A stretch of DNA of 64,000 nucleotides from Melanopsichium pennsylvanicum (lineage: Eukaryota; Basidiomycota; Ustilaginomycetes; Ustilaginales), in the NCBI GenBank assembly GCA_900208305.1, contig OAPG01000005.1, forward strand, positions 930,001-994,000, in the 5' to 3' direction. This document shows positions 3,511 through 32,798 of this stretch, piece by piece. The notes beneath the pieces were generated by a model that saw only the letters and a program-made list of their open reading frames with translations, was not told the origin of the DNA and ran no database searches. A program made the position numbers and the translations under genes. Numbering within the stretch: the stretch's first letter is position 1; each line of letters starts with the position of its first letter.

Positions 3511-4935
3511 CTAGGCAACGTGTTTTTGGTTGGTGGTGTAAGACGATATGTGGAACCAATGTGCAACACCTATGATTAACACTGCCATGATGAAAATTTG
3601 GAAGATTATAGATTTTTGTTGGACTCTACTGTGCGGCTTTAATTTTACTTTTCCTTTTTGTCTCGGTAGGATGGACTGTTTGATTTGTGAATGTACTGGG
3701 TTGATTCTCAAGTTTGCGGGTAGTAGACTTTCGAATAAAGTGGTATTGAGATCAAACGCTCTGTTGGCTTCGTTGATGAATGATTGGATGATGGTATTTT
3801 TGTTTTTTTTTGCTTCGGTTGCTGTTGAAAATCCTTTTTCCATCGCTTCTTTAAACCTCTTTTTTAAATCTTTACCTTTAAAATTATAAAACATAAACCC
3901 ATCAAATCCTATCTTCCCTTCTGTCACCATCATCATCATCATCCTTTTTTCCCTTGTTGTTGTGATTGTAGTATCAACAGGAAAACGTTTAATCAACTTT
4001 TTAACAATATGTTGACCACCACTTAAATCACCCAAATACCTCGTATAAGCATGTGATATCAACAAACCCGATCTCTCACCTTTAAGATCAAGTAGTAAAC
4101 AAGAAACGTATTCAAGTGTGGCTTTAACCTGAGCTGGTTTTAAAAGTGCAAAATGTTCTCTCTCCAAAGTCTTACCAATCGTCATATCATGACAACAACA
4201 AGATGATTCAAATTCCAACGATAATGCATCTTTTACAAGAATCTCTAATCGTTTTCTTGCATCATCATCTTCCACATCTTGATCAACCATACATCCAAAA
4301 TGTGTACCACCATCATTTTGATTTTCTCGATTTTGTTCCATAGATACTTGTGCAAGAGCCTCAAGATCTGCACCAGTATGCAACTCGATTGTTAAAAGAT
4401 GTTTTGAAATATCATCTAGTAACCACCTTGTCCTTGCTAAACTCTGCACCAAATTCAATTCACCATCGTGTTTTTCTTCTTGTTGTTCGAACAAGGGAAT
4501 TAGAAGAGGATTTAGACGAGCTTTATACATGGCAGATTCTAAAGCTGCATAGATGCAAACCAACATGATGTTGAATCGTACATAATCTAACCTGTCAAAT
4601 GCCACACTTTCCTCCCCAATCAATGTTGTTGTTGTCGTCGTCGTCGTTGAAGAAGATGATGATGATGATGAGGAGGAGGTGGTGAGGGAGGAGAGTAGCA
4701 AAGATACACCTTTGGATTTTTCCACTGCCCGATGCGATGCAGCCGTACCCACTCGTAGCGCTTCCGAGAGTGTGAATCCAGCAGAAACAAGGTCAACTTT
4801 TCCAGGTTGGGAAGAAAAAGTGGCGGATGGTGGGGCAAAGCCATGAATAGATTCGAATTGAGCCTTTTGATCAGCAGTCGAGTTTTTGGTCATGGGTGCG
4901 AGAAGCGTTGCGAATTTGGCGAATGGACACGACAT
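3511..4935 (-). CDS. HMX1: heme oxygenase, C-terminally membrane anchored
   Basis: This 474-aa protein should open heme to biliverdin, iron and carbon monoxide at the ER membrane. The first ATG in frame (MSCPFAKF) is chosen as start; the frame is open a further 34 codons but without an ATG. The proximal heme-ligand helix is at about residues 58-72 (GTAASHRAVEKS, His68), and the family signature HAYTRYLGDLSGGQ follows in the second half, then the FYNF block typical of the family. A hydrophobic helix near the C-terminus (IIFQIFIMAVLIIGVAHWF) is the tail anchor, as in yeast Hmx1 and animal HO-1. The enzyme is longer than the usual ~300 aa because of inserted Ser/Thr runs (near residues 90-115) and Asp/Gly-rich loops. 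Codons are AT-rich towards the 3' end. Family assignment is firm; subcellular site is inferred from the anchor. Confidence 0.94.
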   Translation of the reverse strand: MSCPFAKFATLLAPMTKNSTADQKAQFESIHGFAPPSATFSSQPGKVDLVSAGFTLSEALRVGTAASHRAVEKSKGVSLLLSSLTTSSSSSSSSSSTTTTTTTTLIGEESVAFDRLDYVRFNIMLVCIYAALESAMYKARLNPLLIPLFEQQEEKHDGELNLVQSLARTRWLLDDISKHLLTIELHTGADLEALAQVSMEQNRENQNDGGTHFGCMVDQDVEDDDARKRLEILVKDALSLEFESSCCCHDMTIGKTLEREHFALLKPAQVKATLEYVSCLLLDLKGERSGLLISHAYTRYLGDLSGGQHIVKKLIKRFPVDTTITTTREKRMMMMMVTEGKIGFDGFMFYNFKGKDLKKRFKEAMEKGFSTATEAKKNKNTIIQSFINEANRAFDLNTTLFESLLPANLRINPVHSQIKQSILPRQKGKVKLKPHSRVQQKSIIFQIFIMAVLIIGVAHWFHISSYTTNQKHVA

Positions 4936-5707
4936 GTTGCGTGTGCGGTGTAAAGCTGGCTGGGGATGGGATATATCTGATTGAACAGGGAATGCAGATG
5001 GACAATGGTATTCAAGAGAAAGAGTTTGAAATGTCAAGGGGGTGGGGGGGAAAAGAGGTTGGGACGCTTCTTAAATGTACTTTGGTTGTTTATTCTTTGG
5101 CCTGAGGATTGTGATGATGAGATGTACAGATTGGTTGAAAGTGTGTTTTGGGTGATGAAAGGGGCTAAGGGTAAAGCGTACGCAAAAAGGTTGAGCACGC
5201 TGTATAGGATGATGATAAGTTGCCAAGCATATGTTGGCAGAGGAGCTGAAAGGGTTCAGCAAACCTTTGGCGAAGCACTTAGATCAGAGTCGTTTTACCC
5301 TCAAAAAGTTTGAATTTCGTGCTTTGCATACAGTGTAGGATGATGCGAGACAAAAGACAGGGCACTCACCCTCACTTTATTTTCTTGTTGTATTTCAGGC
5401 GTTCTTTGGGCATATTTTGTAATTATTATTTACTCGAATTCACCACGCTGCCATGAGTCGGTATCGTCTGGACAATTCGACGCATTTGGTTTCAAAGGAA
5501 AAGGGTTCTTTTGCACGCACAACACAGCTGAATCACCCTCGCACACAGTCCCCTTGTTTATTTTGCTTTTAGCTGATCTGTGCAAGATACAGGCAAGAAA
5601 TCACGCAATGGATTGTCGAGGTTGACACCCTCTGCTCGTGCTCCCAAGAAATGTTGACTAAATCACTTTGTAGTGAACCTAGATAGCGTGGTTTGACGCA
5701 AAGCCAT

Positions 5708-22215: not shown

Positions 22216-25200
22216 AAGTGGTAGCGGCTACTATGGAGGTAGCCTGTGCAGCGATGGACAGGAACAAGAAGGAAAAAGCAGGAAGGAAAGGTGTGGCTGT
22301 GAGGGGAATGAGAGGTCCAAGGACGATGCTCTGATCTATATTGTCAAACCGGCAAAGAGCGGGTGTAGAGGGCGACACAATCTCGTGAGATGAGAAGGAA
22401 GCGGCCAAATGATTGCGTTCGGCGACGGAGCTGGACCGGTAGTCGGCTCCGGGCTTCCACCAAAGCCGTCGATTTTTGGCTTTTCCAACTTTCCCTCCTG
22501 CTACCTGTAGATGGCATTCACCGTGCGTGACGCATCAAAAACCCAAAGCCGAAGCAGAATAAGGGGAGCGGGGAAGCCATGCCGCTTCTTCTTTGCTAGC
22601 ACCGGTCATCAAAGGGCATACTCTCAGGGCCGGTCGAGTGTGACTTGTGAACTCTTGAAGCTGCACAAATCATGATGATTGGCTGAATATCACTTTTTCA
22701 TGACTGTATTTTGTATTTATTCTGCTCAACGCTGTACTTTGTAGATTTTTTTTTTAATTGTTTTGTTTCAGCATGCGCTCCTTTTGACGCCCCAAGAAAC
22801 GGAATGTTCCTGGTGACAAAGGAGCCTGGACTGGAAATTAAATCCAACAAATCTCGCGCTGAGTGTTGTTCCCTTTTTTGCCATCTTGAAAATCCACCCG
22901 GTGAGATCTTGAAACCTTGAAGCCGATGTCTTCCGACAAGTCCGGGAATGTCCTCATCCTTTGTTACCGGTCTCCATCATATTCTTGCGTGTCGGCCCTG
23001 GTCCATCTCGGTTCCATTCTTCTCATTACCGATCTGTGATTCTTGCGCCATTGATGCATGTCTCCTCTCTCGTTTGAAGCAATGACCTATGCGGCTGCTT
23101 AGAATGGATAGGTTGAGATAACCGGCGTGGTTTACGTGGGCATCTACGGAGACAGGCAGGGATTGATACTGTGCCTTGTCTCGCACGCGGATCAGGCCCT
23201 CATCGCTCAGATCTTGAAGCTAACTCGCACGAAAGGCCACGAAAGCGACCGGCGCAAAGGTTCCGAGCATCCTCGTCACGGTTCCAAGCAGTCGGGACCG
23301 CCTTAGCTCTACCTCTCTCTTTCGCCGTCAGATCTCTGCTCCAGTCGGCGTGTCCTAGATGTGAGAAGGAAGCATAGAGATTGGCAAGACTTGGGACAAG
23401 AGATAAAGGCTCACCTTTCATGGCAACAGATCCAGTACAGTGCTGACCTGTACCGGATCGGCCGCATGTGCCAAGATCACCATGATTAGGATCGTGGGTG
23501 ACCATCCTAATCGGTCGATGAAAGCTGTCAATTCGTGCGAGATGACAATTTGGAAAATCAGCCCGATACTGTTATGCCGCGACCCTCAACATGTTTGGAA
23601 ATTTGGGGCTCATGAGAAAGCTGGACGCTCTGTTCATGGGCTTCAAGCGGCTCGGAGACAAGAAGTGGGACGATCTCGCTACGAGACGCCCATGAAGAAG
23701 AACGCCGAAGAAAATTTATATGTGCACTTAGGCGAGGGCCATACTGGAAAGCGACTGCTCTTCAGTTCTTCTTCCACACAAAGTCCGAGCCGCGCCGTAT
23801 TTTGACGCCATTAATTTATGGTTCGCTCTTCGCTTCAAAAAAATTGAAGCTGCACGACTTCAATTCTCGGGTCGCCTTCAGACAGCATGCTGGATTGGCT
23901 GTCTGTTCTGCAGCCTCGCACAGTATTCTGTACTCGACAGGGGGTCCAGTTCAAAACTTCCAAATATTCACTTCATCGTAAGTCTCATTTCCGAAAAATG
24001 CTCGCTCAGATCGCACCAGGCAGCCACACATTTCGGATGTGATCAGTTCGCGTGGGCTACAGTAGGTGAACGCAACCTAAGATGAAACCACGGCGACCAA
24101 TGACCAAGACATCATACCGCTAGCTAATCTGCGAAACCTCAAGCTTTGTTACGTTGCATGCGTCGGATCCTCTCCGATCGAGCTAGCAGATACAGGGTCA
24201 TGCGAGAGCGCGAACGTTGCATCGCCAGAGCTTGTTCTCTATAACATTCTTGCTGTGATAGGCTACGACTCGCCATGTGCCACCAGCTTGGGGTTTGACA
24301 CTCTAGACTTCTCCCTCGAATTGCGCTACAATACTACAGGTAACACATCGCTGCATCGGTACCCGCCAACTTCGCCAGACGGAGCTTGGCGGTGGAAGAC
24401 TTGATATCTTCAATTCTACCGATGATCAAGTATGTTATTTCAGGAGAGGGTCAACTTTGAAGCCTTAGCCACAGTATGCTCCGCTTTGCTAGCCGCGTGC
24501 TCTGTACGATGCTACCTGCATCGGTGTGCCATCCCAGTTGAAGCTCGTCTTGCGTCTAGCTGACTATGTCGGCAGGAAGGAGGTTGATCCATCCGAACTC
24601 AAAGCATCAGCTTGGGCTCGGTTCGTCACAGTGAGGCTTGATGGTCTCAATGCTCTCTGTCGCATGTAACTAAAACCATTTCTTTTGCAGCAGTCGTTGC
24701 GCAGTTGGCGGCAGCCCACACGGAGATGTCGTTGAAGGTGGGGTGAGAGGATCGAAGGCACCAAGAAGCCTCATCCCATGGCTGCCCACGCAGAACAAAT
24801 CTTGACAGAAGGATCAAAGGCGACAGAGAGAGAGAGAGAGAGACAACATAGAAGAGAATCACAATGAACGCTGCCTATCCCACATGCCGCGCGGCACGAA
24901 ATTGATGCTCAAGCGTAAAGGCTTTGCATAAATTCCGGCGTTGACTGCGCACTGCTCGGAGATGCCGAGCTGGCACACTTTTTCTCCCTCTTTCGTTTGA
25001 CCTCTCTGCCTCACTCTAGCCTTGCCCTCCTATTCAGAGTCGGGCCGCAACTCAGTACGGATCTCAACTTAAACCATGACAGAAGCTCGATCTCGTATGT
25101 GCCCCCAAAAAACGCTGACTCTGGAGAGACAAAGGTGAGGGGACAAGGCGAAGATGAAGCTGCTGATTCGATTTCTTCTGGATAAGCATGTCGGAGCAGG

Positions 25201-26167
25201 CAAAGGAAGCGGCAGCGTCGGTTGTCAGTTTTTCGAGCCTCATCTGACCTTGGAGACGTGGTGCGTGCTGTACTTGACGATGCGTGTTGAAAAGCGAGAC
25301 ACGCAGGGCAATCTTTCGAATTTGTGACCCTGGACCAGTGTCTTGAAAAAAGCTCCTTTTTTTGACGCAGAAAATTGAAACTCCTCCATGAGCATCGGCG
25401 GCCACAACGCAAGAAATGCAGGTAATGCAAGAAATCGCGAGAAATCACATATTTTGACCACACGAAAGTTCCACACAACGAGCGTGTGCGCACCGCTATT
25501 TGCTGCCTGGTTCAGAAGAGAGCGAGAGTGTGACTTAAGCCAGCAAGCAGATAGCGTGCGCGACACAAACTCTCTGTCACCCCCACCGCCCCATTGTACA
25601 AATCTCACGCTCACAGAGGCCCACGCAAGCCAGTCACACACACATGGTCAGACCTGGAAGCCCCTTAGCTCGCGGCCCGAACCTGTATATCCCTTCATTT
25701 CGCGCTCTTTTTTCACCACATCACACCGTCGTCCAACCCATCTGTACATCGCCGCTTCGTCATTCAACGGTTCGCAATCACCTCCATCCACATCGGTCTC
25801 GATCCGAGAAAGTAGTTCTTGTTGCAGTGACGCCGCCGATTTCGACATCCCTTCTTGTCCAAATTCATCTCTACGCTAACTGCGACCAAGCTTTTCGCGT
25901 CCCGCTATAACAACGAGCGAGACGAGCAAACTGCTTTGAATGCGACTTTAGACCCTCACGATTGGCATCGGGTATCCCGCAAAGGCTGACTTGAACCTCG
26001 AGCACCGGGACATTTCATTTATAGCTCAGTGCAGGAGTGTGGAACTCACCCATATCACTAGCACTGCAATCTTTCCGAGTACAACGCGAGCCTTGACGCT
26101 CTCTTCTCATCCTAGCATTCGTGCAATTGCACTTACACTCGCTCACACGCGCTAGGGCTGGCCCAGC
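22216..26167. other. 4-kb gene-poor stretch before the NRPS-like gene
   Basis: The longest gene-free stretch in the window. All open frames are below 165 codons, have no recognisable motif and shift strand and frame constantly. There is a GA tract at 24825-24842. The last 700 bases (about 25450-26167) are pyrimidine-rich and look like promoter plus leader of the NRPS-like gene. I could not find a spliced gene, tRNA or transposase here; a non-coding RNA or a decayed repeat cannot be excluded. Confidence 0.6.
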
Positions 26168-29100
26168 ATGAGCGCAGATTTTCCTCTTGGCTTCTTGTAC
26201 AGCCTACCACCACGGCCAAAGACAAGGTCGCTCGGTGATCACATCGCAGAACACGTCACCGACAATGGCAGAATATCGACACTCATCGACTGCTTGCCTT
26301 CCACCTCGAATCCAGCACTCTGGTCTCCGGATCTCGCTCGTCCGCCGCTCGAGCATCGTCAGATCAAGCAATTTGTTTCGAATTTCGTCCTACCATGTTC
26401 ACCCGACGGATCTCCATTGGGACCAAACGATCGCGTAATGATGGCGCTGCCCACGGGTCCTGAAAACGCTCTCGCTCTGCTGTCCGTTGCAGCTTACCAT
26501 ACTTGTGCACCCGTCAATGCAAGCTGCACAGCTGGCGAGTTGCGCGATGACGCTCTTCGCCTCCAAGCACGAGCGGTTGTGACAACACGAGACGCTGTCG
26601 AGCGACTTGACTTGCACACCCTTCGCAATCAGGACAATATGGAGATCATTTTCATCGAACCCCACTCTTCGGGCCCCGCCGGTCTATTCGACATGTCTCT
26701 CCTCGGTGGGAGCGGGATCGCATCCGCTGCCGGTCGTCGACCCTCGGCACCCCACGGACTCGAACACCAGAGTCTCGTGCTTCACACCTCCGGTACTTCG
26801 GGCAAGAAGAAAGTCGTGCCTTACTCGCTCCGTCACCTCATCGTCGGTACCTGCTGTGTCGTCTACTCATGGGATCTTCGCCCTGAAAGTGTGAACATGA
26901 ACATGATGCCCCTCTTCCACGTCGGTGGTATCGTTCGTAACCTGTGGTCGCCCGTGTTCTCAGCCGGCAGCGCCATCATGTGTGCGGGTTTTGATGCCAA
27001 TGCATGGTGGCCACTCGCCAAACAGCTCGGGGCTACCTGGTACTACGCTGCACCAACTATGCACCACGCCATCCTCGCTTCCAAGCCAGAAGGCATCGAT
27101 GCCTCCAAGGAAACCAGCATCAAGATGATCGCCAATGCTGCAGGTGGTCTCTTGCCTTCGCTCGCCGTTCAGCTCAAGGAAACCTTCATCGGATGTGCCG
27201 TGCTTCCTTCGTACGGAATGACCGAGTGCATGCCAATCGCCTCGCCTCCGACAAACTACCAGCTTGACCGCCCTGGATGCTCTGGTGTCGCCTGTGGCCC
27301 CGATCTTTCCATCCGAGATCCTTTCGACAAGGAACGAGAGTTACCCGTCGGACAGACTGGTGCCGTTTCAGTACGAGGTCTTCCTACGTTCTCGGGATAC
27401 GAAGTTTCCGCCGATCCATTTGAGCCTTTGGACACGTCCGCCTTTTCCACTGAAGGCTGGTTCGATTCGGGTGACATGGGTCATATGGATGCCGACGGAT
27501 ACCTTTACATCACGGGTCGATCCAAGGAGATCATCAACAAGGGAGGTGAAGTCGTCTCCCCCTTCGAAGTGGAGGAGGCCATCACTCAGGCCTGTTCCGA
27601 TCGTGTCAAGCAGTGTCTTGCTTTCTCCATTGAACATAACGTTCTTCAGGAGACGATCGGCGTTGTCATCGTGCCAGTGCCCAATCAGCCACGTGTCGGT
27701 CTCGCCGAATTGCACAACATGCTCCGAACCCATTTGCACCCCTCCAAGTGGCCATTTGCTGCTGTCTATATGGATGATCTTCCCAAGAATCAAGCAGGAA
27801 AGTCGCTCCGTATCAAGCTCGGCACTCGTCTCGGCATCGGTCCGCTTTCCGATGATGTGCCACCTCTGCAGCGCCACTTCGAAGCAAAGGCACCAGGCAA
27901 GGAGGTTCCTCTCTCTGAGCCTATCCCTTGCAATCTCGTCACCGTCGATGTACGAGCTGTCGAGCGTGCCTGCTACCGCATCCCTGGTATCGTCGAGGCC
28001 GCTGTGCGTCAGCGACGCGACGGATCGCCAGAAGCTTTTATTCAGGTTGAGGAGGACGCTGACTACGACGCAGCCGACATTGACCGAGCTCTGGCCCAGG
28101 TACTGCACGGTTACGTCGTGCCCAACCCGCTACACGTCTTCCGACAGCCGTTGGCAAAGAACCACGGTCAGATCGACTTCGACACCATGGAGGCCGAGGT
28201 CCGAAGGCAGAACGCTTCCAGCATGACTCGAACCGCCTTGATTGTCCGTGACATCATTGCTCGTCTGCTCGACACCGAGGCTGGTTCCATCACAGCCGAG
28301 TCGGACTTTTTCTTGCTCGGAGGCAACTCCCTCCTGCTTGGTCGACTTGTGCATCTCATCCGCAAAGAGACCGGCGTGTCACTCGAGGTGTCGACCCTAT
28401 TCAACAATTCGTCTGTGGCAGGCATTGCCGACCTTGTGGATGATGAGCAGGGTCTGGAAGATGAAGATGGAGACGACTTTTACGATGGCTATGATGACAA
28501 GGGCGCTCTTGGGGCGACGTACGCCGCTCACAGATACGATGAGGACGAGGATATTGCCTTCCGGAGCCACGGCTACAAACCACGCAGTCAGACTCACCCA
28601 TGGGTCCTCTTTATCCAGATTATCCCGTTCATCTTCTTCTACCCTTTCAAGGCTGCCTGGACCTGGACCGTCATTTTGCACGGTCTCGCCTTCTCTGCAT
28701 TCTACATTCGTGACATCTTCTGGGAGCGTGTGGGCGCTCTGCTAGCATCCATCGTCGTCGCCAGATTGACCAGTCGTATCATCTGCCCCATCACTGCTAT
28801 CGCCTTCAAGTGGATCGTCATCGGCAGGTACCGCCCGGGCAAATACCCCATGTGGTGCAACTACCATCTCCGCTGGTGGATCGTCAACCAATCGCTCAAG
28901 ACCGCCGGTAAGGGTTTGTTTGCCATGACCCCCGGTCTGCAGAAGGTCTACTACCGTCTGCTCGGAATGCAGATCGGATCCGACGTCAAGATCGACCAAT
29001 TCGCGAAGATTGCCGAGCATGACCTTATCACCATCCATGACGGTGCTCGCATCGACAAGTGCCTACTCCGTGGCTTCTGCGTCGAGCGTGACGGATACTT

Positions 29101-30967
29101 CCGACTTGAGCCCATCATTGTTGGTCGCGATTGTGTGGTCAACACTTTCACCCAGATCTCGCCCGGTGCCAGGCTGGCCGACGGTACCGTTTGGGGTCCT
29201 CAATCGTCGTCGCACGAAGAGCCCTCGTCGGACGCGTATGCTGCCTACAACCGCAACAATGCGCCTCAGCCTCACTGGGCGCTCCTGCTCCTCATTGGCT
29301 ACCCTATCATCTTCCTCGTTCGATTCGCCTGCTACGTGCCTTGGTTTGCATCGCTCTTCATGCTCTTGTCGCAGCCATTCGCCTTCAACCACCACGACAG
29401 TGTCAAGGGTGTCATTGCCTGGTTCGCCTACCCACGCCGTATCGGATGGCATTACGTCGCGCGTATCGTGCGAAACGGTATGCCCCCACTCATCAACTTG
29501 GCCTTGGGTATGCTTGTCAAGCGTTTGCTCGGTCTCAACAAGGAAGGTTCGATGCGGAACGCCACCCAGTATGCTCTCTTCCGACGATGGATGAACCAGC
29601 AGCTACTGTCGCAGCCCCGTGTGCGTCGTGCGCTTGCCATTCTCGGTACGCACTACGAAATGACATCGGTTATCTTCCGTGCCATGGGTGCTCGTGTCGG
29701 CAAGCGTGTCTATTGGCCTGGATCCAGCATCTATTGCCCCGACCCAGAATTGCTCGAGATCGGCGACGATGTCGTGTTTGGTTCGCGTTCAGAGGTGTTC
29801 ACGTCGGACAGCATCGGCTGGGCTCGGGTTCGTGTTGGACGTGGCGCCATGATTGCGGATCGTGTCGTTTTGCTTCCCGGTACCATCATTGGCAAGCAGT
29901 GTGTCATGGGTTCCGGCGCCCTCGCACGACGCAATGGGCATTATGAAGAGGGAAGTGTCTGGATGGGCTCCAAGCACGGTGAAGCTGTCAGCTTTGGTAA
30001 GGCGGTACCCGAGAAAAGCGAACGTGGCCTAGGTTCCAACGGCGACGACGAGACCATCACGCCATTCGGCCGTGCATTCTACAGGCGACAGGCCAACTTC
30101 TTTGTGTTCCCTTACCTCATGCTGGTCCTCATCAACGTGGGCATGACCATCTTCTCTTCAGCATACTGGGCCTCGGCAGCTGTGGGCACTGTGCTCGTTC
30201 TCAACTTGCTTCGCAGGCATTTCGAGTACACGTCCGCCGGCTTCCTCTTCGACGACCACTGGTGGCGACCCGGTCTGATCTACGCCATGATCGCGATTCT
30301 GTTTGTGATCATGCTTACAGTTCAGGCGCAGTTAGCATTCTTGTGGACCATAGCAACCAAGTGGGCTGTAATCGGACGACGTCGAGAGGGACGCTTCGAT
30401 TGGGACAAGTCATCGTACTGTCAGCGATGGCAGCTTCACTTGACGCTTCAAAAGCTGCTGGGACGTGGATTCGGTGGTCACATCTACGGTAACATCTCGG
30501 GTACCGCCTATGCAGTTTGGTACTTGCGGGCCTTGGGTGCGAAAATCGGAAAGGACTGCGCGATCTGGGCTGGTGGAAAGCCATCGCTTCAATTAACAGA
30601 GCCAGAGTTGGTGACGATGGGTGATAGAGTTAGCATCGATGACTGCTCGGTGGTAGCGCACATCAACTCGAGAGGTCGTTTCAGCCTGAACAAGCTGCGC
30701 ATTGGGGATGGATGCGCGATGCGTACAGGTAGTCGATTGTTGTCCGGCGCTAGCATGGAGCCGAGATCGATGCTTTTGGAGCACACGCTGGTGGCGTCGG
30801 GTGAGATTGCGGAAGCAGGTGCAGTGTATGCCGGTTGGCCTGCTAGGCAGTTGCGTGTGAGGAAAGCTCACCGTGGCAATGGTATCCAAGGCGAGATGTC
30901 AGCTGGCAGTAGTTCAACCAACTTGCACCAGCAACCTCCGCCTCCTGGCTACTTTGGGCACCAATAA
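26168..30967 (+). CDS. NRPS-like membrane synthetase, Pls/epsilon-polylysine-synthetase type
   Basis: Single 1599-aa exon. Adenylation domain (~1-560): core A3 LHTSGTSGKKK (205-215), A5 YGMTEC (349-354), A7 GWFDSGDMG (430-438), A10 NQAGKSLR with Lys545. Residues ~598-675 look like a second adenylation C-terminal subdomain (RIPGIVEAAVRQR, then NHGQIDFDTM) in which Gln668 replaces the catalytic Lys. Carrier domain ~690-760 with SDFFLLGGNSLLLG; Ser721 is the phosphopantetheine site. After an acidic linker come three repeats of a hydrophobic hairpin followed by a left-handed beta-helix of hexapeptide repeats: membrane ~812-870 with helix ~933-1010, ~1037-1072 with ~1173-1265, and ~1310-1395 with ~1456-1560. 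This A-T-(TM-C)x3 order is that of bacterial Pls and fungal epsilon-poly-L-lysine synthetases, which polymerise one amino acid through side-chain amide bonds. The substrate is unknown; the FDANAWW motif is closer to acyl-CoA ligases. Confidence 0.93.
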   Translation: MSADFPLGFLYSLPPRPKTRSLGDHIAEHVTDNGRISTLIDCLPSTSNPALWSPDLARPPLEHRQIKQFVSNFVLPCSPDGSPLGPNDRVMMALPTGPENALALLSVAAYHTCAPVNASCTAGELRDDALRLQARAVVTTRDAVERLDLHTLRNQDNMEIIFIEPHSSGPAGLFDMSLLGGSGIASAAGRRPSAPHGLEHQSLVLHTSGTSGKKKVVPYSLRHLIVGTCCVVYSWDLRPESVNMNMMPLFHVGGIVRNLWSPVFSAGSAIMCAGFDANAWWPLAKQLGATWYYAAPTMHHAILASKPEGIDASKETSIKMIANAAGGLLPSLAVQLKETFIGCAVLPSYGMTECMPIASPPTNYQLDRPGCSGVACGPDLSIRDPFDKERELPVGQTGAVSVRGLPTFSGYEVSADPFEPLDTSAFSTEGWFDSGDMGHMDADGYLYITGRSKEIINKGGEVVSPFEVEEAITQACSDRVKQCLAFSIEHNVLQETIGVVIVPVPNQPRVGLAELHNMLRTHLHPSKWPFAAVYMDDLPKNQAGKSLRIKLGTRLGIGPLSDDVPPLQRHFEAKAPGKEVPLSEPIPCNLVTVDVRAVERACYRIPGIVEAAVRQRRDGSPEAFIQVEEDADYDAADIDRALAQVLHGYVVPNPLHVFRQPLAKNHGQIDFDTMEAEVRRQNASSMTRTALIVRDIIARLLDTEAGSITAESDFFLLGGNSLLLGRLVHLIRKETGVSLEVSTLFNNSSVAGIADLVDDEQGLEDEDGDDFYDGYDDKGALGATYAAHRYDEDEDIAFRSHGYKPRSQTHPWVLFIQIIPFIFFYPFKAAWTWTVILHGLAFSAFYIRDIFWERVGALLASIVVARLTSRIICPITAIAFKWIVIGRYRPGKYPMWCNYHLRWWIVNQSLKTAGKGLFAMTPGLQKVYYRLLGMQIGSDVKIDQFAKIAEHDLITIHDGARIDKCLLRGFCVERDGYFRLEPIIVGRDCVVNTFTQISPGARLADGTVWGPQSSSHEEPSSDAYAAYNRNNAPQPHWALLLLIGYPIIFLVRFACYVPWFASLFMLLSQPFAFNHHDSVKGVIAWFAYPRRIGWHYVARIVRNGMPPLINLALGMLVKRLLGLNKEGSMRNATQYALFRRWMNQQLLSQPRVRRALAILGTHYEMTSVIFRAMGARVGKRVYWPGSSIYCPDPELLEIGDDVVFGSRSEVFTSDSIGWARVRVGRGAMIADRVVLLPGTIIGKQCVMGSGALARRNGHYEEGSVWMGSKHGEAVSFGKAVPEKSERGLGSNGDDETITPFGRAFYRRQANFFVFPYLMLVLINVGMTIFSSAYWASAAVGTVLVLNLLRRHFEYTSAGFLFDDHWWRPGLIYAMIAILFVIMLTVQAQLAFLWTIATKWAVIGRRREGRFDWDKSSYCQRWQLHLTLQKLLGRGFGGHIYGNISGTAYAVWYLRALGAKIGKDCAIWAGGKPSLQLTEPELVTMGDRVSIDDCSVVAHINSRGRFSLNKLRIGDGCAMRTGSRLLSGASMEPRSMLLEHTLVASGEIAEAGAVYAGWPARQLRVRKAHRGNGIQGEMSAGSSSTNLHQQPPPPGYFGHQ

Positions 30968-31705
30968 GTAGCTTGTTTCTGCCCATTGATATTCTCGCAG
31001 ATTCCAGCGTCATGCCCCGATAGGTGCCTTGTCGTTCGCAGCATGATTCCGCATAACATCGTGATCCCGTTTGAGTACGAGTTCTTTTCCCTTGATACAG
31101 TCATTTGGCTTTACCCTCGCATCGCAGAAGGTGTGGGCCGAACACCATCTTTAAATTTCTTCCAATACTTGTTGAGCATCGGCAATGTTTAGCGCCTAGC
31201 TTTCTCAATGAACAATGTCTAAGCTTGTTTTGCAGTAGTGGAAGGCGAAGTTGGGGCTGTGCGAGCTTACAAATGAACACAGGTTCCTGAGAGGCTCCTG
31301 AGAGGCTGGATCGGGAGGGGAGCGGCCGGTCACCGGGAAAGGTTCAGATTAGCAGCTGGGTCGGCTTGGTCCGAAAAGATTGTCGGTGGTGTATGAAGAG
31401 GCGAATCAGAAGATGAGTGGATCGGGTTGGCGTTTCATCTGACATTACTCTTCAATGTTGAGCGCAGCTCGGCAGAACTGGTGTAACACTCACTATACAC
31501 GCTGAGTCGGTGAATTTGAAAGCTAACGAAGCAAAGAGGATACACGATAAGTACAGAAGCCACGCGAACCAAGAGCAAGTAAAGGAGGGTGAAACCACGA
31601 GAAATACGGATGAGACCCTGCCGTAGATGCAACAACCTATTGGATCGTACCGGGAGCAGTGACCATGCACCTGCACTGTTTATACACTACAGTAAGCGGC
31701 ACTCT

Positions 31706-31747
<42 letters not shown>

Positions 31748-32798
31748 GCTTTCGGGATTGGATCGGGCGAGGTCGCGCCGAAGCACACTGACATCCAACA
31801 CATTGAACGAAGGAAGGCAAATTAGAAGAAAAACCATGCGGAATTCAACGAAACACATCGGCTTAATTACGCTCGCCCCGAAAGAACCAAAAGAATGACC
31901 ATCTCGAGCTCAAGCTTTGAGGAACATGAATACTGTAGTGTAGCATTGAAGGCGGCCTGAGCAACTCGTTAGTTTCGGCGAAAGAGGTGCCTTTATGAAG
32001 GGAAAAGGTCGAAGCTAAGTCTGAGCTTGAGCTCTGTCAAGAAAGAAAGACCGGAAGACCCGATCATGTCCATGGACCACCATCAACTGCGGACATGCTC
32101 AGTAGACCAACACAGGGTCACGAGCGCACGGGGCTGCCGCTATCCTCTCAAAGAAGCAAAGGAATTAGGGAAAAGGAAAGTGACACGTTTCATGGTCATG
32201 GCTCTCCTCGCTTGATTGTGGCTATACCCGAGGAACAGACCAACCCCCCACGCCGAGGGTGTGTATGCAATGTCCCTGCCCCCTCTCACGTGTCTCTTTC
32301 CTCGACTGAGCCACACCTACTGTAGCCAGCTGCCATCTGTGCATGTAATTCAAGGTGAGTGTGTCTGCCAGTTGCCATCACCGGACGGCATTCCGCCGAA
32401 CCTTTCAAAGCTTCAGCTGTAGTAGGGTAATTTACAAAGCAGTACAGGCTCAACTCTTTTCTTGTGTTCCCTCTGTGTGTCCGTCCACCTAGCGTCGTCA
32501 GCGTCGACACAGAGTGTTTGTTCGTGTATTGTCTTTTACACCATCGTCATCACCATCATCACCATTTCCTCCAACGCTACCAAGTCTTTCTGATTTAGCG
32601 TCAGCTACAGATTGGCACATTCGAACGATCGCGTCTCTCCACTTTTCTTTTGTTCTTTCTGAATTTCGGTTGGTGCGTAAGTTGTTTGCTCCCGCCTCCT
32701 GCCTCTCGCTCGCCCGCTCAGGCCCTCGCTTCGGTTTGGTCAAACGATTTGCTCACCTTCATTCCTCCTGCTTTCCGCCCACCATCAAACGCTTGCAG
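30968..32798. other. intergenic with T39 run, before the aminopeptidase
   Basis: No supported gene. Contents: an 11-base direct repeat TCCTGAGAGGC in tandem (31285-31306), a run of 39 T (31708-31746), and from about 32500 a CT-rich leader in front of the aminopeptidase. The frame that includes the proposed first exon is open back to 32514, but the upstream part has no ATG-based support. Confidence 0.65.
31708..31746. repeat. T39 homopolymer
   Basis: Uninterrupted run of T, the longest homopolymer in the window. It could be the copied poly(A) tail of a retroposed RNA on the minus strand, but I see no coding remnant beside it. Confidence 0.95.

Follow-up and report, generated by a model that had tools for sequence, protein, structure and literature searches.

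What does a smut fungus synthesize with a single membrane protein that resembles the bacterial polymer synthetases in its C-terminal part and a CoA ligase in its N-terminal part? The question is raised by a gene of Melanopsichium pennsylvanicum within a stretch of 64,000 nucleotides (contig OAPG01000005.1, positions 930,001 to 994,000 of the forward strand), which we call the window and to which all nucleotide positions refer unless another contig is named. The original prediction had read the gene product as kin to the epsilon-polylysine synthetase Pls, with adenylation and carrier domains followed by three units of a membrane hairpin plus a left-handed beta-helix, and had offered an isopeptide polymer as a possible product.

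Results

One open frame encodes a loading domain, a carrier, and a membrane ring

The gene occupies 26168..30967 on the plus strand, as an open frame of 1,599 amino acids plus stop that is the sole full-length match in the genome. Since the genomic open frame comprises 1,603 codons versus the 1,599 in the window, there is no long in-frame extension. Pfam located AMP-binding at residues 84-411 (E 5.9e-35), AMP-binding_C at 467-545, PP-binding at 693-757 (E 8.5e-14, with Ser721 within LGGNSL, the carrier serine that had been predicted), and Hexapep at 1221-1251 (E 8e-11). At thresholds up to E 1, Pfam found no condensation, thioesterase, or reductase domain in the protein, as had been foreseen, and no FAD/NAD(P)-binding oxidoreductase domain. 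The lack of a condensation domain distinguishes the protein from canonical non-ribosomal peptide synthetases (NRPS), which have one; condensation-domain matches of this genome lie on other contigs. A classical multimodular NRPS, a frame of 4,148 amino acids with four condensation-domain matches, is found at C7:611784-621011 on the minus strand, and by its size we take it to be the ferrichrome synthetase.

All domains are read from the plus strand. The loading (adenylation) domain, which includes Lys545 and a C-terminal subdomain of its own, spans 26417..27835 (residues 84-556; placed by Pfam, PDB matches, tree, and motifs), and is followed by a second adenylation C-terminal subdomain (A_C) at 27911..28213 (residues 582-682) and by the carrier (thiolation) domain at 28223..28459 (residues 686-764), with Ser721 encoded at 28328-28330. 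By the Pfam match the carrier is intact, serine included, and because ACPS-domain matches occur at three places in the genome, it can probably be primed. The first of the three C-terminal units consists of a helix pair (28562..28819, residues 799-884; model and hydropathy) and a left-handed beta-helix (28961..29233, residues ~932-1022; model and TIGR02353), the second of helices whose second part is weakly hydrophobic (29270..29530, residues 1035-1121; model, with hydropathy for 1033-1069 only) and a left-handed beta-helix (29684..30007, residues ~1173-1280; Pfam Hexapep and model), and the third of a helix pair (30071..30373, residues 1302-1402; model and hydropathy) and a left-handed beta-helix (30533..30862, residues ~1456-1565; model and residue comparison) that holds Glu1478 and His1498, the latter encoded at 30659-30661.

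The surroundings are of a general cellular kind. Pfam matches were obtained in 12 of the 18 neighbouring frames scanned, which were read without intron models, and comprise heme oxygenase, NCBP3/RRM, Rsm22, Ima1_N, a fumarase-type lyase, a GTPase, carnitine acyltransferase, M1 peptidase, SKN1/KRE6, PfkB, SNF2, and cupin/JmjC; given this general kind of all 12, a biosynthetic cluster was set aside. The SKN1/KRE6 gene and the genome size of 21.1 Mb are in keeping with a fungal source. The G+C content of the gene is similar to that of neighbouring coding regions. Upstream, the ~3.8 kb of 22409-26167 hold no frame longer than 163 amino acids and may represent an extended regulatory region or a spliced gene that escaped detection, and Rfam gave no match anywhere in the window. 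Two further observations concern the flanks: the frame at 3511-5037 (minus strand) matches a C-terminal heme oxygenase domain (E 1.7e-16) over the last half of the profile, and downstream of the gene, at ~31690-31750, a long T/A run appears as poly-F or poly-K in mechanical frames.

The predicted structure shows three helix and beta-helix units

We modeled residues 560-1599 using 58 bacterial alignment rows and obtained a mean pLDDT of 70.7 and a pTM of 0.75. The model contains an A_C-like fold, the carrier, and, three times over, long helices that lead into beta-helix turns, as the structural check proposed with the original prediction had anticipated. Confidence fell below 50 at 560-593, 770-783, 1205-1218, 1268-1297, over the 31 C-terminal residues, and at a handful of short sites; a single-sequence model of residues 795-1599 was discarded at a pLDDT of 37.7. 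Of the three hydrophobic hairpins originally claimed, the model contains all six helices, while hydropathy gave five clear stretches (811-832, 854-887, 1033-1069, 1308-1348, and 1364-1398), leaving helix 1078-1121 of the model, the second in the middle pair, below threshold. Hence, six membrane helices are modeled and five are clear by sequence. Among Foldseek rows to E 0.001, the best were NRPS modules, which match the carrier and A_C part, with hexapeptide acetyltransferases from rank 29 (E 5e-4); the VIA rows cover chiefly model residues 25-205 and carry little information on the ring. The plan of the protein matches that of the PosA model as Patel and Gulick describe it (PMC10522769).

The C-terminal part belongs to the Pls/PosA synthetases

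By sequence as well as predicted fold, the C-terminal part belongs to the C-terminal half of the bacterial Pls/PosA polymer synthetases, which make epsilon-polylysine, delta-polyornithine, and kin, and in which a carrier likewise precedes three units, each of membrane helices plus a left-handed beta-helix. The NCBIfam model TIGR02353 of this region matched three stretches of the protein (E 5.9e-57), with scores of 193.5 and 196.6 bits that stay below the curated cut-off of 423.1, in which the protein differs from its bacterial counterparts. When the whole genome was scanned with TIGR02353 to E 1, five matches were listed. Three fall within this gene, the strongest at 1.8e-26; the remaining two are weak (E 9e-4 and 5e-3) and lie elsewhere, in frames of 113 and 239 amino acids.

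The ring region (residues 795-1599) was matched by a frame in 117 of 117 bacterial loci (115 distinct), at E values from 6e-40 to 1.3e-8. When it was compared by tblastn with plasmid records, 60 records matched, 28 of them with one place covering at least 80% of the query; among the 40 matches listed, identities ranged from 20.6 to 30.5%, and 13 were annotated Pls/PosA synthetases. Bacterial and archaeal genomes, scanned with an alignment of four of the bacterial proteins found there, yielded at least 568 relatives, of which 80 were kept. In the planctomycete phylum, 34 of 294 genomes had a ring match at E 1e-3 or better, and in a proteobacterial phylum 75 of 398 did (phyla assigned via loci L056 and L041, respectively), many of these matches being small hexapeptide proteins alone; in the proteobacterial phylum, at least 27 of the 398 genomes had a ring match in a frame of at least 1,300 amino acids. 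Viral contigs gave no relative, and one stretch there fitted a pattern. The five best bacterial ring matches among 90 loci (L056, L057, L058, L059, and L062) are from Planctomycetota, not Streptomyces. For the origin of the ring, these top matches give only a hint, as proteobacterial queries were used to assemble the set.

The ring is ~20-27% identical to those of the bacterial Pls/PosA synthetases. Upon comparing it with 28 non-redundant bacterial relatives chosen from the 90, we found a mixture of kept and altered positions. Arg902, Trp904, Glu1478, His1498, Gly1545, and Glu1546 are kept and are invariant in all 28, and the first four are common to the fungal protein and Pls/PosA; a catalytic role of His1498 is presumed here from hexapeptide acyltransferases in general. 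Asp1231, Asp1491, Val1496, Ser1501, Arg1502, Ser1506, Ala1543, and Ser1544, by contrast, differ from 26 to 28 of the 28 relatives. The conserved bacterial features altered in this way are the QTHLxEDRxMK-type stretch, MKGE, the Asn at 1231 and 1491, and the Trp-x-Gly-Ser (WxGS) turn of unit 1, which reads Glu-Glu in the fungal protein. Position 1206 was conserved in all 28 in this comparison, but not in a second alignment, and is given no weight here. Because several residues conserved in bacteria are altered, the reaction of the ring may differ or be lost.

The loading domain is of the oxalyl-CoA-synthetase-like ligase kind

The adenylation domain, by contrast with the ring, is not of the Pls/NRPS kind and by sequence is of the oxalyl-CoA-synthetase-like ligase kind, in line with the affinity to oxalyl-CoA and acyl-CoA ligases that had been suspected. 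Its nearest solved structures are oxalyl-CoA synthetases (6qjz, E 1.5e-48; 5ie0, 7.8e-46; 8aff, 2.7e-40), and it scored 288.3 bits with a ligase profile built from nine sequences only, the fungal protein left out, versus 21.4 with a Pls profile. We also built a tree of 33 adenylation domains, in which a 100/100 branch set apart the 23 Pls domains and the fungal domain grouped with four oxalyl-CoA-like ligases at 99/99 on a long branch of its own (3.0). By profile score, each of the 108 bacterial relatives whose adenylation domain could be read was of the NRPS kind; the bacterial synthetases thus have an NRPS-kind loading domain where the fungal protein has a ligase kind and an extra A_C. A search of 14 genomes gave a match at E 1e-20 in 11, the closest being bacterial ligases in frames of 512-550 amino acids (31-33% identity), followed by an oxalyl-CoA-synthetase-like ligase of the same fungus (30% identity). 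This fungus has a free-standing ligase of this type with the family stretches intact (L002, C3:1666353-1667729), a probable ordinary oxalyl-CoA-type enzyme.

Where all 28 bacterial relatives have the Asp and Glu that bind diamino acids (Asp217 and Glu221 of PosA), the fungal domain has His251 (26918..26920) and Arg257, which counts against the isopeptide poly-amino-acid product of the original prediction; according to Patel and Gulick, this Asp and Glu are conserved in cationic homopolymer synthetases (PMC10522769). The same source reports fungal homologues of less than 1,500 residues and places most of these in the ornithine-activating branch. The oxalyl-CoA synthetases share the common ligase motifs with the fungal domain but are free-standing, and the HxHG, RS[SC]S, and MTEA-x-H stretches of the four oxalyl-CoA-like ligases read FHVGG, ANAAGG, and MTECMP in it. 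We take these stretches to bind oxalate, and on their alteration we rejected an oxalyl-CoA synthetase as the function. The other ligase motifs and Lys545 are present, with a P-loop in which Lys replaces the usual Pro. As motifs and Lys545 are kept and the family stretches altered, the sequence suggests a domain that is active on another acid than that of the oxalyl-CoA-like ligases.

A second A_C subdomain lies between the ligase and the carrier

Residues 582-682, overlooked in the original prediction, form a second A_C subdomain in which Gln takes the place of the catalytic lysine, and it is nearer to the Pls kind. It scored 18-25 bits with Pls profiles versus 2.1 with the profile of nine ligases, while the first A_C gave the reverse, 9-12 bits versus 73.5. 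In an A_C tree, the second A_C was placed on the Pls side at 100/99, with a very long branch (5.5). This nearness to the Pls kind points to an exchange of the loading domain, of which residues 582-682 would be the likely remnant, left over from an earlier NRPS/Pls-type domain. The segment could instead be a duplicated subdomain of other origin, as the best NCBIfam match to residues 560-690 alone was a fatty-acid CoA ligase model (22.3 bits) and as Pls sequences alone represented the NRPS A_C kind in our tests.

Discussion

The computed architecture is that of a protein of two ancestries, with a second A_C subdomain at their junction. We consider it about even (a probability of roughly 0.5) that the protein is a single-protein, membrane-bound acyl-transfer synthetase that makes a small acyl conjugate from a carrier-loaded carboxylic acid, following an exchange of its loading domain. 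In this scheme, the oxalyl-CoA-synthetase-like ligase domain would activate a carboxylic acid for which an alpha-amino group is not required, and the activated acid would be loaded onto Ser721 of the carrier. The Pls-type ring, with its three beta-helices above the membrane helices, would subsequently hand the acyl group over to an acceptor that diffuses freely and is most likely an amine, and the product would be a small acyl conjugate, with no cationic poly-amino-acid formed. In Pls, as described in a review, the ring joins carrier-bound lysine to freely diffusible lysine or to a chain that is never covalently bound (PMC9205021). The gene itself would have arisen from a Pls-type synthetase that exchanged its loading domain for a complete ligase, a swap that left behind the C-terminal subdomain of the old domain (582-682), minus its catalytic lysine. 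What we infer is that an exchange took place, together with the chemistry, the acceptor, and the product. Since the loading domain is ligase-type, the donor acid probably lacks an alpha-amino group, and the enzyme product is probably other than an amino-acid polymer.

Several other readings share parts of this evidence. As the ring is of the type found in iterative polymerases, keeps Glu1478, His1498, Arg902, and Trp904, and is combined with a loading domain open to non-amino acids, it might still polymerize, using a carboxylic acid with its own nucleophile off the alpha position, such as a hydroxy acid or an omega-amino acid. Through the exchange, a poly-amino-acid polymerase would then have become one that joins non-amino acids at the membrane, and its polyester or unusual polyamide would grow without covalent attachment and be delivered there; yet the bacterial polymerases share a conserved stretch around His1498 that is altered in the fungal protein, and the sequence gives no indication of the monomer, so that we regard this outcome as doubtful, if worth keeping in mind. 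The many ring residues unlike those of polymerases also fit an O-acyltransferase that, like many hexapeptide acyltransferases, moves the acyl group from the carrier to a lipid, sugar, or cell-wall acceptor, and maltose, galactoside, and serine acetyltransferases indeed appear among the Foldseek rows, as do WcaF and other O-acetyltransferases among the NCBIfam matches. Any left-handed beta-helix is expected to give such matches, however, and the membrane helices with the threefold internal plan are of the Pls type, which makes this unlikely.

The altered positions of the ring could further mean that it is a non-catalytic membrane anchor for an acyl-CoA or acyl-carrier ligase, but the 805-residue ring region has remained open with three TIGR02353 stretches still matched, the invariant ring residues are kept, and the carrier and its serine are intact, all of which renders a mere anchor quite improbable. 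Less probable still is a synthetase that makes cationic poly-amino-acids, like Pls or the Epls of Epichloe festucae, but by way of an unusual loading pocket, despite the identical overall plan and the epsilon-polylysine made by the fungal Epls (PMC7179176): the pocket Asp and Glu are His251 and Arg257, and the ancestry of the domain is that of a ligase. Epls, compared by description only, shares with the protein the fungal host, the A and T domains, and the three tandem C domains, but according to the same text it is 51% identical to S. albulus Pls and has a conserved lysine pocket, unlike the protein here.

Two other fungal proteins invite comparison. TmpL and TmpB (PMC2766074, PMC4804170) are likewise fungal adenylate-forming proteins with about six membrane helices, but TmpL has an FAD/NAD(P) domain and is reported to lack thiolation and condensation domains, and this family was rejected for the carrier and beta-helices on one side and the oxidoreductase domain on the other. 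Ann3 of Verticillium dahliae, whose cluster affects antibacterial activity, is described as an AMP-dependent synthetase/ligase with a carrier and five transmembrane domains (PMC13065033). Compared by this description only, Ann3 is a possible relative, with five clear hydrophobic stretches here too.

In a literature search that mostly excluded subscription papers, we found no description of a Pls-type ring joined to a CoA-ligase loading domain, and the bacterial relatives that we checked pair such a ring with an NRPS-type loading domain in 108 of 108 cases. If our preferred reading, that of an acyl-transfer synthetase with an exchanged loading domain, is true, nature has replaced this domain by a CoA-ligase domain and left what looks like a decayed piece of the old one in place, and the ring can work with further acyl donors. 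A single protein would then suffice to test whether the choice of monomer lies with the ring. The gene would also point concretely to a new fungal product and set an example from nature for adapting such synthetases to other acids.
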